Origin: Halopenitus persicus
GTDB taxonomy: Archaea; Halobacteriota; Halobacteria; Halobacteriales; Haloferacaceae
Reading direction: 5' to 3'
Assembly: GCF_002355635.1 (NCBI RefSeq)
Contig: NZ_AP017558.1
Coordinates: 868,001-932,000, forward strand
Length of the DNA stretch: 64,000 nt
Position numbers and translations under genes: made by a program
Shown here: in pieces, positions 38,356 to 47,361 of the stretch
Layout of the letters: every line of letters begins with the position of its first letter
Numbering within the stretch: position 1 is the first letter of the stretch
Notes under the pieces: generated by a model
What the model was told of the DNA's origin: nothing
The model's database searches: none
The model's input: the letters and a program-made list of their open reading frames with translations, nothing else

Positions 38356-39030
38356 CTATCGCTCCATCGGAACCGTCGAGTCCGTCGACCCGATGGATCC
38401 CACTGCTTCCGCCGATTCCGCCGCCTCAGCGGCGGCCACCTCCGTCAGGAAGTTCCGAACGACGTCGTGGCCGACGCCCGTGAGGACGCTCTCCGGATGG
38501 AACTGGACGCACTCGATCGGACGTTCACGGTGGCGGATCCCCATCACGAGTTCCGTCCCGTCGTGGTCGGTCGTCGCCGAGACCACGAAGCAGTCGGGGA
38601 CGTCGGTCGCGATCAGCGAGTGGTATCGCCCCGCGCGGAACCCCTGATCGAGGCCGACGAAGACGCCCGCCCCGTCGTGGTCGATCGGGAAGGCCTTGCC
38701 GTGAACCGGCTCGGGAGCGTGACCGACCGAGCCGCCGTACTCGTGGACCGCGGCCTCGAGCCCGAGACAGACCCCAAGCGTCGGGATCGTCGGCGAGAGC
38801 TCGCGAAGCACGTCGGTCGTGACGCCGACGTCCCGGTCGTTCTTCGGGTGTCCCGGACCGGGGCTGATCACGATCGCGTCCGGGTCGGTTTCCCGAACGT
38901 CCGCAAGCGTCGCCCGGTTCTTCAGGACGGTCGTCTCGACGCCGCCCGGAAGCGGCTGTTCGGAGACGTACTCCACGAGGTTGTACGTGAACGAGTCGTA
39001 GTTGTCCACGAACGTGACGCGCGTGGTCAT
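38356..39030 (-). CDS. trpG: Anthranilate synthase component II (glutamine amidotransferase)
   Basis: This 224-residue subunit supplies ammonia from glutamine to TrpE. The class I amidotransferase triad is visible: Cys in GVCLGLEAAVHEYGG at about residue 82, and His/Glu in QFHPESVLT near 173-175; the oxyanion-hole block is SPGPGHP. The start ATG at 39030 overlaps the trpE stop codon (ATGA), so translation is probably coupled. It is the last gene of the trpDFEG operon. The C-terminal 25 residues, rich in Ala and Ser, extend past the usual end. Haloarchaea can also use PabA-like subunits, but the operon settles this one. Confidence 0.94.
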   Translation of the reverse strand: MTTRVTFVDNYDSFTYNLVEYVSEQPLPGGVETTVLKNRATLADVRETDPDAIVISPGPGHPKNDRDVGVTTDVLRELSPTIPTLGVCLGLEAAVHEYGGSVGHAPEPVHGKAFPIDHDGAGVFVGLDQGFRAGRYHSLIATDVPDCFVVSATTDHDGTELVMGIRHRERPIECVQFHPESVLTGVGHDVVRNFLTEVAAAEAAESAEAVGSIGSTDSTVPMER

Positions 39031-40745
39031 CGGTCCGCCTCACCCCCCGTCTCCCGGATCGCCTCGACCGCGGCGCGCACGCCGTCCATCTTCTGTTCGG
39101 TCTCCTCGTACTCGGCGGTCGGGTCCGAGTCGGCGACCAACCCCGCTCCGGCCTGGATCGTGATTCGGTCCGTGGGCCCGGTCTCGGAGGACGGCGCGTC
39201 CGGAACGGCCTCGATCGGAGCGTCGTCGATCGAAACGTCGTGGTCGATCGTCGCCGTCCGGATGACGATCGCGAAGTCGGCGTCGCCGGTCCAGGAGTAG
39301 TACCCGACGCCGCCGCCGTAGACGCCCCGGGGAGACCGCTCGAGTTCGTCGATGATCTCCATCGCTCGAACCTTCGGCGCGCCGGTGAGCGTCCCCGCGG
39401 GGAACGTCGCCCGCGTCGCGTCGAAGGCGTCGGCGCCGGCGGCGAGCGTCCCGGTCACGGTCGACTCGATGTGCTGGACGTGGCTGTACTTGAGGACGTT
39501 CATGAACTCCTCGACGCGCACGGATCCCGGCGCCGACACGCGCCGGACGTCGTTGCGTGCGAGGTCGACGAGCATCGTGTGCTCGGCGCGCTCCTTCTCG
39601 TCGGCGAGCATCTCGCCGGCGAGCCGCCGGTCCTCGACCGGGCTCTCCCCGCGGGAGCAGGTCCCGGCGATCGGGTTCGAGACGATCCGATCCCCCTGAA
39701 CCGACACGAGCGTCTCCGGGCTCGCGCCGACGATCGACCGGTCGCCGTGGCGCAGGAGGTACATATACGGCGACGGGTTGATCTCCCGGAGCGCGTCGTA
39801 GAGCCCCGTCGGGTCCACGTCGCCGTATAGCTCCCGCGTTCGGGAGATGACGCCCTGGTAGATCTCGCCGTCGAGGACGCGCTCCTTGGTCGTTCGAACG
39901 GCCGCCTCGTAGGCGTCCCGGGGATCCGCCGTCTCGGCGATCCCGGCGAACCCGCCGGGCGCCGGCTCCGCGGCATCCCGAAGATCGGTGCGGACGCCGG
40001 CAGCCTCCGCGATCCGGTCGTCGTAGACCGCGCCCGGGTCGTCGTCGGGAGTGACGACCGGCGTGAGGACGAGGTCGACGGTGCCGGCGACCTCGTCGAA
40101 GACGAGCGTCCGCGTCGTGAGACAGAACTCGGCGTCGGGAACGACGGGCTCGGGACGATCGACGCCGACCTCCTCGAGCCAGAGGTCGTAGATCGCGTCG
40201 TACGACAGGAATCCGACGAACCCGCCCGAGAGCGTCTGTCGGTTGGTTTCCGGGAATCCGCGGCGCTCCACGTCCGGGAACGCGCCCCGAACGCGGTCGA
40301 GGACGTCGCCGGCGTTCGGGCCGATCGCGTCGCCGGTCGAGTTCACATCCGCGTCCGCAGTCTCCGCGAGCAGGTCGGCCGCGGGCCCGAGCCGCGTCAG
40401 GTCGGTCCGGTCGGGATACACCGAGAGGACCGCCTCGGGGTCGTAGCCGACGAACGAGTACCGCGCGTGGCGGTCGGCGTCGGCGCCGGGCGCGAAGGCC
40501 CCGTCAGGGTCGCTCGAGGCGACCTTCTCGGCCGACTCCAGCAGGAAGCCGTGGTCGCTCCGGTCGGTCAACGCGGCGTAGGCGGTCAGCGGCGAGACGT
40601 CGACGTCGAGCTCGACCGCGATCCGGACCACGGCCGGGCCGTCGGCATCGGCGACGTGGTCGACGAACGCCTCCCGGGACAGCGACGGATCGAGGTCCAC
40701 GAGCGGATCGGCGATCCGATCGGCGGGTTCCGAACGAGACGTCAC
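39027..40745 (-). CDS. trpE: Anthranilate synthase component I
   Basis: This 572-residue enzyme makes anthranilate from chorismate with ammonia from TrpG. The chorismate-binding domain is recognised by GGFVGFLSYDAIYD, YQGVISRTRELYGD, SNPIAGTCSRGESP, HTMLVDLARNDVRRV and FPAGTLTGAPKVRAME, in order along residues about 200-480. An N-terminal segment of about 120 residues contains the ESAEK-type element (LLESAEKV), part of the feedback-inhibition site for tryptophan in this family. The GTG at 40745 is taken as start: it overlaps the trpF stop codon and gives MTSRSEPADRI. A longer open frame upstream has no resemblance to TrpE. Confidence 0.95.
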   Translation of the reverse strand: MTSRSEPADRIADPLVDLDPSLSREAFVDHVADADGPAVVRIAVELDVDVSPLTAYAALTDRSDHGFLLESAEKVASSDPDGAFAPGADADRHARYSFVGYDPEAVLSVYPDRTDLTRLGPAADLLAETADADVNSTGDAIGPNAGDVLDRVRGAFPDVERRGFPETNRQTLSGGFVGFLSYDAIYDLWLEEVGVDRPEPVVPDAEFCLTTRTLVFDEVAGTVDLVLTPVVTPDDDPGAVYDDRIAEAAGVRTDLRDAAEPAPGGFAGIAETADPRDAYEAAVRTTKERVLDGEIYQGVISRTRELYGDVDPTGLYDALREINPSPYMYLLRHGDRSIVGASPETLVSVQGDRIVSNPIAGTCSRGESPVEDRRLAGEMLADEKERAEHTMLVDLARNDVRRVSAPGSVRVEEFMNVLKYSHVQHIESTVTGTLAAGADAFDATRATFPAGTLTGAPKVRAMEIIDELERSPRGVYGGGVGYYSWTGDADFAIVIRTATIDHDVSIDDAPIEAVPDAPSSETGPTDRITIQAGAGLVADSDPTAEYEETEQKMDGVRAAVEAIRETGGEADR

Positions 40746-41386
40746 GCGAGCGTCACCTCCCGGCCGGCGTTGCGGACGAACCGGGCGAGCGCGTTGTGGT
40801 CCTTTCGACCGCCGGTCAGCTCCACGCCGGAGGCGACGTCGACCGCGTACGGGTCGGCGGTCTCGACGGCCTCGGCCACGTTCTCCGGGGTGAGCCCGCC
40901 CGCGAGCACGACCGGCGACGCGAGCCGGGCGGCCAGCCGGCCCGTCGACTCCCAATCGTGGGTCCGTCCGGTTCCGCCCGCGCCCTCCTCTGTCGTCGAG
41001 TCGACCACGAGCGCGTCGACCGCCTCGTCTGCCCGCTGGGCACGGGCGTGATCGTCGGCGTCCACGGTGAGCAGGACCTTCACGCCCGTCTCGGCGCGGA
41101 CGTAGCCGATCTCCTCGGCGGTCCACTCGCCGTGGAGCTGCAGCGCGTCGGGACCGACGGTCCGGACGAGCTCGACCGCCCGCTCCGGCGAGTCCGGCAT
41201 CGTCACGAGCGTGGCAGTCACGAACGGCGGCACGCCGGCCAGCAGGTCCGCCGCGGTCGCCGGGTCGACCTCTCGAGGCGTCTCGACCGGGACCTCGGTG
41301 ATGATCCCGATCGCGTCCGCGCCGGCTTCGATCGCCGCGCGGACGTCGGCGCCGCGCGTGAGCCCGCAGACCTTCGCGCGAGCCAT
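40742..41386 (-). CDS. trpF: Phosphoribosylanthranilate isomerase
   Basis: This 214-residue TIM-barrel enzyme performs the Amadori rearrangement of phosphoribosylanthranilate, the third step to tryptophan. Family blocks are the N-terminal AKVCGLTRGADVRAAIEAGADAIG with its catalytic cysteine, LQLHGEWT in the middle, VVLAGGLTPENVAEAVE and the closing DVASGVELTGGRKDH with the catalytic aspartate. The ATG at 41386 overlaps the trpD stop codon by one base (TGATG), so the gene is coupled to trpD. Its own stop overlaps the trpE GTG start. Confidence 0.95.
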   Translation of the reverse strand: MARAKVCGLTRGADVRAAIEAGADAIGIITEVPVETPREVDPATAADLLAGVPPFVTATLVTMPDSPERAVELVRTVGPDALQLHGEWTAEEIGYVRAETGVKVLLTVDADDHARAQRADEAVDALVVDSTTEEGAGGTGRTHDWESTGRLAARLASPVVLAGGLTPENVAEAVETADPYAVDVASGVELTGGRKDHNALARFVRNAGREVTLA

Positions 41387-42438
41387 CAGTCGTCCGCCTC
41401 GGCCCCGACGTCCGCGTCCCCGTGCGCCGACTCGGCCGTGTCGCCGCACAGCGCGTCGAGCTTCTCGGCGGCGGCGCCGGAGTCGATGGCCTCGGCGGCG
41501 GCGTCGACGCCCGCCTCGAGCGAGTCGGCCAGCCCCGCGACGTAGACGGCCGCGCCGGCGTTCGCGAGGATCAGGTCACGCTTCGGCCCGGTCACGTCGC
41601 CCGTGACGATCCCGCGGAGGTCGGCGGCGTTCTCCTCGGGGCCGCCGCCTGCGACGTCCCCGATCGGCGCGCGTTCGAGCCCGAGGTCGGCAGGTTCGAT
41701 CGTGTACTCGGTGACGTCCTCGCCCTCGACCTCCGCGACGACCGTCTCGTCGTGGAGCGCGATCTCGTCCATTCCGGAGCCGTGGACGACCAGCGCGTGC
41801 TCGACGGGCATGTGCGCGAGCGACCGGGCGATCTGCGGGACGAGGTCGGCGTCGTAGACGCCGAGGACCTGTCCCTCCGCTCCGGCCGGATTGGTGAGCG
41901 GGCCGAGCACGTTGAAGACCGTCCGCACGCCGAGCTCCTTGCGCGGCCCGATCACGGCCTTCATCGCGGGGTGGAACACCGGCGCGAGCATGAAGCCGAT
42001 CCCGTCCTCGTCGATCGCGGCCTCGACGGCCGGCGGCTCGGCCTCGACGTCGACGCCCGCCACCTCGAGCACGTCGGCGCTCCCCGAGGTGGAGGAGACC
42101 GAGTAGTTGCCGTGTTTGGCCACGGCGGCTCCGGCTCCCGCCGCGACGATGGCGGCGGTGGTGGAGACGTTGATCGTGTCGTAGTCGTCGCCGCCGGTGC
42201 CGCAGGTGTCGACGAGGTACTCGCGGTTCGGCTCGATCGTCCGGGCCGCGTCGCGCATTCCCGTCGCGAACCCCGCGATCTCCGCCTCCGTCTCGCCCTT
42301 CGCCCGAAGCGCCGCCAGCAGCGCCCCGATCTGGGCCTCCGTGGCCTCCTCGAAGACGATCCGGGCCGCCTCCCGAGCCTCCTCGACGCTCAGATCCTCG
42401 CCCGCCGTCACGCGCTCGATGATGGTTGTGATGTTCAT
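41386..42438 (-). CDS. trpD: Anthranilate phosphoribosyltransferase
   Basis: This 350-residue enzyme adds PRPP to anthranilate. The PRPP loop is DTCGTGGDDYDTINVST at about residues 79-95, followed by KHGNYSVSSTSGSADVLE, both diagnostic of TrpD. FHPAMKAVIGPRKELGVRT and NVLGPLTNPAGA are further signatures. A C-terminal extension rich in Ala, Asp and Glu follows residue 335. It is the first gene of the cluster, giving the order trpD-trpF-trpE-trpG known from Haloferax volcanii. The ATG at 42438 is chosen because the reading frame upstream contains the promoter region and the TGTACA boxes described separately. Confidence 0.96.
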   Translation of the reverse strand: MNITTIIERVTAGEDLSVEEAREAARIVFEEATEAQIGALLAALRAKGETEAEIAGFATGMRDAARTIEPNREYLVDTCGTGGDDYDTINVSTTAAIVAAGAGAAVAKHGNYSVSSTSGSADVLEVAGVDVEAEPPAVEAAIDEDGIGFMLAPVFHPAMKAVIGPRKELGVRTVFNVLGPLTNPAGAEGQVLGVYDADLVPQIARSLAHMPVEHALVVHGSGMDEIALHDETVVAEVEGEDVTEYTIEPADLGLERAPIGDVAGGGPEENAADLRGIVTGDVTGPKRDLILANAGAAVYVAGLADSLEAGVDAAAEAIDSGAAAEKLDALCGDTAESAHGDADVGAEADD

Positions 42439-42470
42439 TGTGGGCACCGATGTATAGGTTCGTCTTGTAG

Positions 42471-42497
42471 TGTACATATTTGTACATCGCCTTAAGC
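42471..42497 (-). promoter_or_regulatory. trp operon promoter with two TGTACA boxes
   Basis: Two TGTACA hexamers at 42471-42476 and 42481-42486 are separated by four bases, so their centres are one helical turn apart. On the minus strand the TATA-like element gcttaagg (about 42490-42497) lies just upstream of them, and the start codon of trpD is at 42438. TGTACA is the published TRP box bound by TrpY in Methanothermobacter. The position between TATA and the expected transcription start fits repression; TrpY itself is not in this window. Confidence 0.75.
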
Positions 42498-42558
42498 GTA
42501 TCGTCGGCGGGACGAACTGCCGGATGAAGACGTCAGTCGATGCCAAGCGGCGGGACGA

Positions 42559-42628
42559 AAATACGATGGTCGACGGGGGAGAGGAAATACGATGGTCGAC
42601 GGGGGAGAGGAAATACGATGGTCGACGG
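42559..42628. repeat. 26-base tandem repeat
   Basis: Two full copies of aaatacgatggtcgacgggg plus gagagg lie at 42559-42584 and 42585-42610, with a partial third copy (aaatacgatggtcgacgg). It lies 26 bases past the stop codon of the small zinc-finger gene on the minus strand. Confidence 0.92.
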
Positions 42629-42653: not shown

Positions 42654-42794
42654 TCACATATCCCGCGACTGCCCGATGTGCCACAGGTCGCCGCCGCAGT
42701 CGTCACAGGTCGGGGTCTCGGGATCGACCGTTCGAGCGAGACAGTCGAAACATTCGTACACCGATCCGGTCTCTGTGTTGGTTTCTGGGCGCAT
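42654..42794 (-). CDS. 46-residue rubrerythrin-like zinc-finger protein
   Basis: This tiny gene reads MRPETNTETGSVYECFDCLA at its start and then has CDDCGGDLWHIGQSRDM at its end. The two CxxC knuckles (ECFDC and CDDC) would bind one zinc ion, in the style of the rubrerythrin-like or DUF7129 microproteins of haloarchaea. A TATA element (gttatatatc, complement of about 42813-42822) lies about 25 bases before the ATG at 42794, so the mRNA would be leaderless. The gene is short and easily missed. The role is unknown. Confidence 0.85.
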   Translation of the reverse strand: MRPETNTETGSVYECFDCLARTVDPETPTCDDCGGDLWHIGQSRDM

Positions 42795-42859
42795 ATTTCA
42801 AATATAACGTCGCAGATATATAACTCGATCCCTGAAAGACCGTATATCGATCAGAGGCG

Positions 42860-47281: not shown

Positions 47282-47361
47282 TCAGTCCGAACGGTCGACG
47301 ATCAGTCCGAACGGTCGACGATCAGCCCGAACGGTCGACGATCAGCCCGAACGGTCGACCG
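47282..47361. repeat. 20-base tandem repeat with the stop codon of the DUF389 gene
   Basis: Four units of tca(g)tccgaacggtcgacga type begin at 47282, 47302, 47322 and 47342. Each starts with tca, the complement of TGA; the stop of the gene at 47342-48637 is the tca at 47342-47344. The copies beyond it lie outside the coding sequence. Confidence 0.93.

Follow-up and report, generated by a model that had tools for sequence, protein, structure and literature searches.

A phased array of TGTACA boxes at both trp operons of haloarchaea, with a TrpY-family regulator as its predicted reader

The trpDFEG promoter of Halopenitus persicus carries an array of four TGTACA-like boxes in strict 10-bp phase, and the second, trpC-headed trp operon is preceded by an array of its own. 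It is almost certain that this four-box array represents an operator shared by trp operons, and a TrpY-family protein encoded elsewhere in the genome is, as predicted from sequence, its likely reader. TGTACA is reportedly the TRP-box consensus of TrpY from Methanothermobacter. Taken together, we consider it quite probable that, when tryptophan is available, TrpY-family dimers on a phased TRP-box operator repress trpDFEG and trpCBA. New here are the complete phased array, the finding that it precedes both trp operons and extends across the phylum, and the loss of trpY linkage and autoregulation.

The window analysed, a stretch of 64,000 nucleotides of the H. persicus genome, carries trpDFEG on the minus strand. 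The first gene, trpD (41386–42438), encodes anthranilate phosphoribosyltransferase, begins with an ATG codon whose first base is 42438, and is 95% identical to its Halopenitus orthologues in H. malekzadehii and H. persicus. It is followed by trpF (40742–41386), an open reading frame that identified trpF in 37 loci when used as tblastn query, by trpE (39027–40745, start approximate; Pfam matches Chorismate_bind and Anth_synt_I_N), and by trpG (38356–39030), an open reading frame identified by tblastn. The original prediction had placed the arrangement TGTACA-N4-TGTACA in the promoter of this operon, between the TATA element and the trpD transcription start. Both boxes occur exactly there on the minus strand, box 1 at 42481–42486 (array offset 0) and box 2 at 42471–42476 (offset +10), with their centres 10 bp apart. 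The BRE/TATA-like element (42491–42505, minus strand) consists of CTTAAG at 42491–42496 and a conserved CGA-A upstream of it. Transcription of trpD probably starts around 42467. Since CTTAAG lies at 42491–42496 and the start presumably near 42467, the pair falls between the two, as had been proposed.

Two further degenerate boxes in the same phase had been overlooked; in Halopenitus trpD they are recognisable solely through alignment of relatives. Putative box 3 (TATACA, 42451–42456, minus strand) is located at offset +30, and the weak putative box 4 (TGCCCA, 42441–42446, minus strand) at +40. The latter overlaps a GGTG element (42445–42448, minus strand) that forms a conserved column block directly 5' of the start codon and that we take to be a Shine-Dalgarno-like ribosome-binding signal; several Halorubrum sequences in the alignment have an exact TGTACA at +40. 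Between boxes 2 and 3, a CACAAnnCGAA block (window 42459–42470, approximately +16 to +27 from box 1) equals the boxes in its degree of conservation, with one C column reaching 2.0 bits. It is not itself a TGTACA box, and the boxes do not account for it; perhaps it is an initiator or leader signal. The stretch upstream of the promoter is unconserved among relatives. It holds a 26-bp tandem repeat (AAATACGATGGTCGACGGGGGAGAGG, 2.7 perfect copies, 42559–42628) approximately 60 bases upstream of the promoter. At 42655–42795, the minus strand encodes a 46-amino-acid protein that matches Pfam DUF7129 and whose four cysteines are arranged as two CxxC pairs, and a 20-bp tandem repeat (TCAGCCCGAACGGTCGACGA, 3.9 copies) is located at 47282–47359 of the window.

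Haloarchaeal trpD upstream regions were aligned on the start codon, yielding 103 distinct sequences. The pair is perfect in 44 of these, matches at least 10 of 12 bases in 95, and at least 9 of 12 in 102, thus extending the predicted boxes to related haloarchaea. Only 0.84% of dinucleotide shuffles reached 10 of 12, and the high proportion of trpD promoters at this level therefore indicates that the TGTACA pair is no chance match. Genera with the pair include Halorubrum, Haloferax, Halobellus, Halorientalis, Halomicroarcula, Halorussus, Halomarina, Halorhabdus, Haloterrigena, and Natrinema. Column information in the trpD promoters amounted to 0.14 bits in the flank upstream of the promoter, 1.4 in the BRE/TATA region, 1.6 in box 1, and 1.7 in box 2. 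The trpC-headed operon displayed its own array, TTATGTACAGATNCGTACATTAGTGTACAGTAATGGACG, in all of the 30 haloarchaeal genomes compared, each trpC promoter reaching at least 9 of 12 bases; in Halopenitus it is located at C1:1943664, approximately 20 bases before trpC. This array runs from the TATA element to the start codon and lies within approximately 35 bases of the latter.

The phasing of the boxes was determined by comparing TGTACA with the sequence at every offset, from -20 through to the end of the alignment, with at least four of six matching bases regarded as box-like. In 88 aligned trpD promoters, only offsets 0, +10, +30, and +40 were box-like in more than half of the sequences (100, 100, 94, and 66%, respectively, the commonest form at +30 being CGTACA). 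In trpC of the 30 genomes, the only such offsets were 0, +10, +20, and +30. The order of boxes thus differs between the two operons. The boxes at trpC +30 and trpD +40 are the least certain ones because they overlap the start codon and GGTG, respectively. As all offsets are multiples of 10 bp, the boxes all face one side of the helix, and the earlier proposal of a common helix face for the two original boxes is strengthened by the strict phasing of all four.

The array is nearly restricted to trp promoters. The 3.1-Mb Halopenitus genome contains a single copy of the exact pair, and within the 64-kb window one pair with zero to two mismatches was found compared to 0.10 expected. The whole genome contains 23 two-mismatch pairs. 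Good-scoring near-matches in promoter position before a plausible gene were confined to trpD and trpC in this genome, while most others were located within open reading frames. A weak site with a two-mismatch pair occurs 38 bases before a secreted-protein gene in the Halopenitus genome. Two near-matches at C1:832038 and C1:833442 were considered as an additional promoter pair and rejected; one resides in a long open reading frame, and both lack a promoter setting. In ten other haloarchaeal genomes, the pattern TGTACN6GTACA yielded 22 sites compared to none for the reversed control. It was present at trpD in nine of the ten, and the other sites examined were mostly coding. The recurring sequence TGTACGATGAAGTACA was rejected as a further operator, as it codes for the glycine dehydrogenase motif GSCTMKYN. 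In each of two Haloferax-like genomes, TGTACCCGGCAGTACA lies approximately 90 bases upstream of a gene of the same type, possibly as an extra target or by chance.

The original prediction had called for a TrpY homologue in the genome. An ACT-domain search of the Halopenitus genome first revealed such a protein of approximately 165 amino acids, encoded outside the window at C1:1461875-1462363. Its assignment to the TrpY family is based on the NCBIfam model NF053754 (TrpY family transcription regulator), which matched residues 2–164 of 166 with 223.5 bits (curated cut-off 180). An ACT domain is weakly supported, scoring 22.4 bits, below the cut-off of 27, and searches of solved structures with the protein returned only marginal ACT-domain matches. 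No Pfam helix-turn-helix (HTH) match was obtained for the protein; an HTH-like block, IARELDVDRRVVDST, is conserved in the alignment. A TrpY-family gene, usually single-copy, was present in all 154 good haloarchaeal genomes and in 100 of 101 genomes across the phylum. In Halopenitus, trpY is located after hisB and before radA. A position directly after hisB recurs in several other haloarchaea, and the trp model does not account for this connection with histidine synthesis. None of 31 haloarchaeal loci had TGTACA within 110 bases upstream of trpY, which indicates that the classical trpY autoregulation is missing. Gene clustering of 80 loci revealed no conserved regulator beside trpDFEG, save for an Lrp-type gene flanking five loci.

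To follow the array beyond haloarchaea, we searched 40 genomes from other families of the phylum, from which 37 trp loci of 13–18 kb were taken. At 19 of the 37 loci, a pair matching at least 10 of 12 bases was found no more than 260 bases before the first trp gene, compared to 1.8% of random windows, and several loci displayed arrays of three or four boxes spaced by 10 bp. No trpY match was found beside the trp genes in any of these 37 loci. In one family (f21), which we take to be Archaeoglobaceae-like, all seven trp loci lacked the pair in the corresponding 260-base interval. The alignment shows the presumed recognition helix as DRR(V/I/A)(V/I)(D/N)x(T/V) in lineages bearing the boxes and as DRKVV(V/L/I)xAIQ in f21. 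As f21 is a single clade, the helix change and the box loss count as one event, and since the near-universal TrpY also occurs in this box-less family, presence of TrpY alone is not diagnostic. On balance, it is somewhat more likely than not that TrpY with TRP boxes was the ancestral tryptophan repressor of Halobacteriota and, with Methanothermobacter, of a wider euryarchaeal group. Haloarchaea and many methanogens would have a narrow, trp-only, non-autoregulated system with phased four-box arrays, and the system would have been lost or re-purposed in box-less f21 along with the change in the recognition helix.

The arrangement suggests how the operator may work, with TrpY as the inferred binder and tryptophan as its inferred ligand. 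Two TGTACA boxes with centres one turn apart form a 16-bp palindrome, which would suit the binding of a single HTH dimer, so that four boxes could accommodate two. With each of its two recognition helices contacting one box, a TrpY dimer would read two successive boxes in adjacent major grooves along the same helix face, and a second dimer would occupy the remaining two. At trpD, the first pair would lie between TATA and the presumed start, and the second over the early transcribed region. Tryptophan filling the ACT domain would cause the dimers to cover the DNA that begins immediately downstream of TATA and reaches the start codon, thereby keeping TFB/RNA polymerase off both the trpDFEG and the trpCBA promoter. 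Without tryptophan, the dimers would release. From sites downstream of TATA, archaeal regulators usually block polymerase recruitment, as stated for the TrmB relatives TrmBL1/Tgr (PMC10817205). Because the array is located downstream of TATA, repression by TrpY at plentiful tryptophan is the most likely reading. The proposal that TrpY-like tryptophan control reaches haloarchaea is thus supported, with TrpY as the presumed binder and tryptophan as the presumed signal.

Another factor, for example of the Lrp/AsnC or TrmB type, might instead read a real trp operator while TrpY serves a different pathway, which we regard as unlikely but deserving of serious consideration. The unlinked position of trpY, behind hisB in Halopenitus, and its own promoter without TGTACA were counted against TrpY as the reader. 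In Thermococcus, where TrpY homologues have other roles, the homologue fails to bind the trp promoter and exerts no trp control, so that TrpY homologues need not control trp genes (PMC6737238). For Haloarcula hispanica, a TrmB homologue, HAH_0923, was proposed by the authors of the respective study (PMC10817205). A TrmB-type reader is, however, at odds with the presence of the array in Halopenitus, whose genome gave no match to PF11495 (Regulator_TrmB), and most box-bearing methanogens tested had either none or weak PF11495 matches. In favour of TrpY, the boxes equal the TGTACA sequence that is said to be its published box, and the difference of the TrpY helix in box-less f21 was counted for TrpY as the reader.

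It is improbable that the boxes serve activation, with TrpY or another factor helping to recruit the basal transcription machinery under tryptophan limitation. Activator sites are usually located upstream of BRE/TATA, and the flank upstream of the BRE in the trpD promoters is unconserved (0.14 bits). The array is instead located downstream of TATA, the usual blocking position for archaeal regulators (PMC10817205). Activation does have a precedent in Tar of Thermococcus kodakarensis, which activates trp genes (PMC6737238), and both trp operons of Haloarcula hispanica need positive input (PMC10817205). Even less credible is a role of the conserved stretch as a transcribed leader acting in RNA, or as core promoter plus ribosome-binding signals. 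Conservation does continue through the putative 5' leader to GGTG. However, boxes 1 and 2 of trpD lie upstream of the presumed start, and with its array so close to the start codon trpC would have almost no leader. In addition, solely multiples of 10 bp match the box, which indicates helical phasing on DNA, and such a near-restriction to trp operons would not be expected of core promoter signals. Chance neighbouring of two short palindromes, for which the 23 two-mismatch pairs of the genome might speak, is refuted by conservation that extends over more than 25 genera of haloarchaea and into several families of methanogens, and has next to no probability. TrpY-mediated repression at a shared trp operator remains our preferred reading.

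In the open literature searched, TrpY of Methanothermobacter and Tar of Thermococcus are the only archaeal trp regulators described, and the function of haloarchaeal TrpY homologues is unexamined (PMC6737238). The two trp operons of Haloarcula hispanica respond jointly, and TrmB alters the expression of both, like the operator described here in addressing two operons. However, neither the 19-bp TrmB motif nor a TrmB ChIP peak occurs near these operons, so that another factor is called for (PMC10817205). The Halopenitus genome lacks a Regulator_TrmB match. The factor acting on the two trp operons of Haloarcula hispanica thus gains a named candidate, TrpY, and a defined operator. From this candidate and its operator, haloarchaeal trp promoters are predicted to be tryptophan-repressible, and the proposal is addressable in genetically tractable haloarchaea.

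Tar (TK0271) of Thermococcus kodakarensis shares with the haloarchaeal system the control of archaeal trp genes via a short repeated DNA site. It is an activator encoded in the aro operon, mainly limited to Thermococcales, and reads TGGACA-N8-TGTCCA (PMC6737238). The Halopenitus site, in contrast, is TGTACA-N4-TGTACA.

The closest resemblance is to Methanothermobacter, where TrpY represses trp genes via TRP boxes according to work cited in PMC6737238. A TrpY-family regulator and TGTACA boxes overlapping the trp promoter region are shared with Methanothermobacter thermautotrophicus. The trpY gene of Methanothermobacter is reportedly adjacent to and divergent from the trp operon and autoregulated via TRP boxes, whereas that of Halopenitus is unlinked to trp and has a promoter without TGTACA. 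Furthermore, the haloarchaeal operator differs from that of Methanothermobacter in serving two separate trp operons and in comprising four-box arrays in strict 10-bp phase, with an order of boxes particular to each operon.
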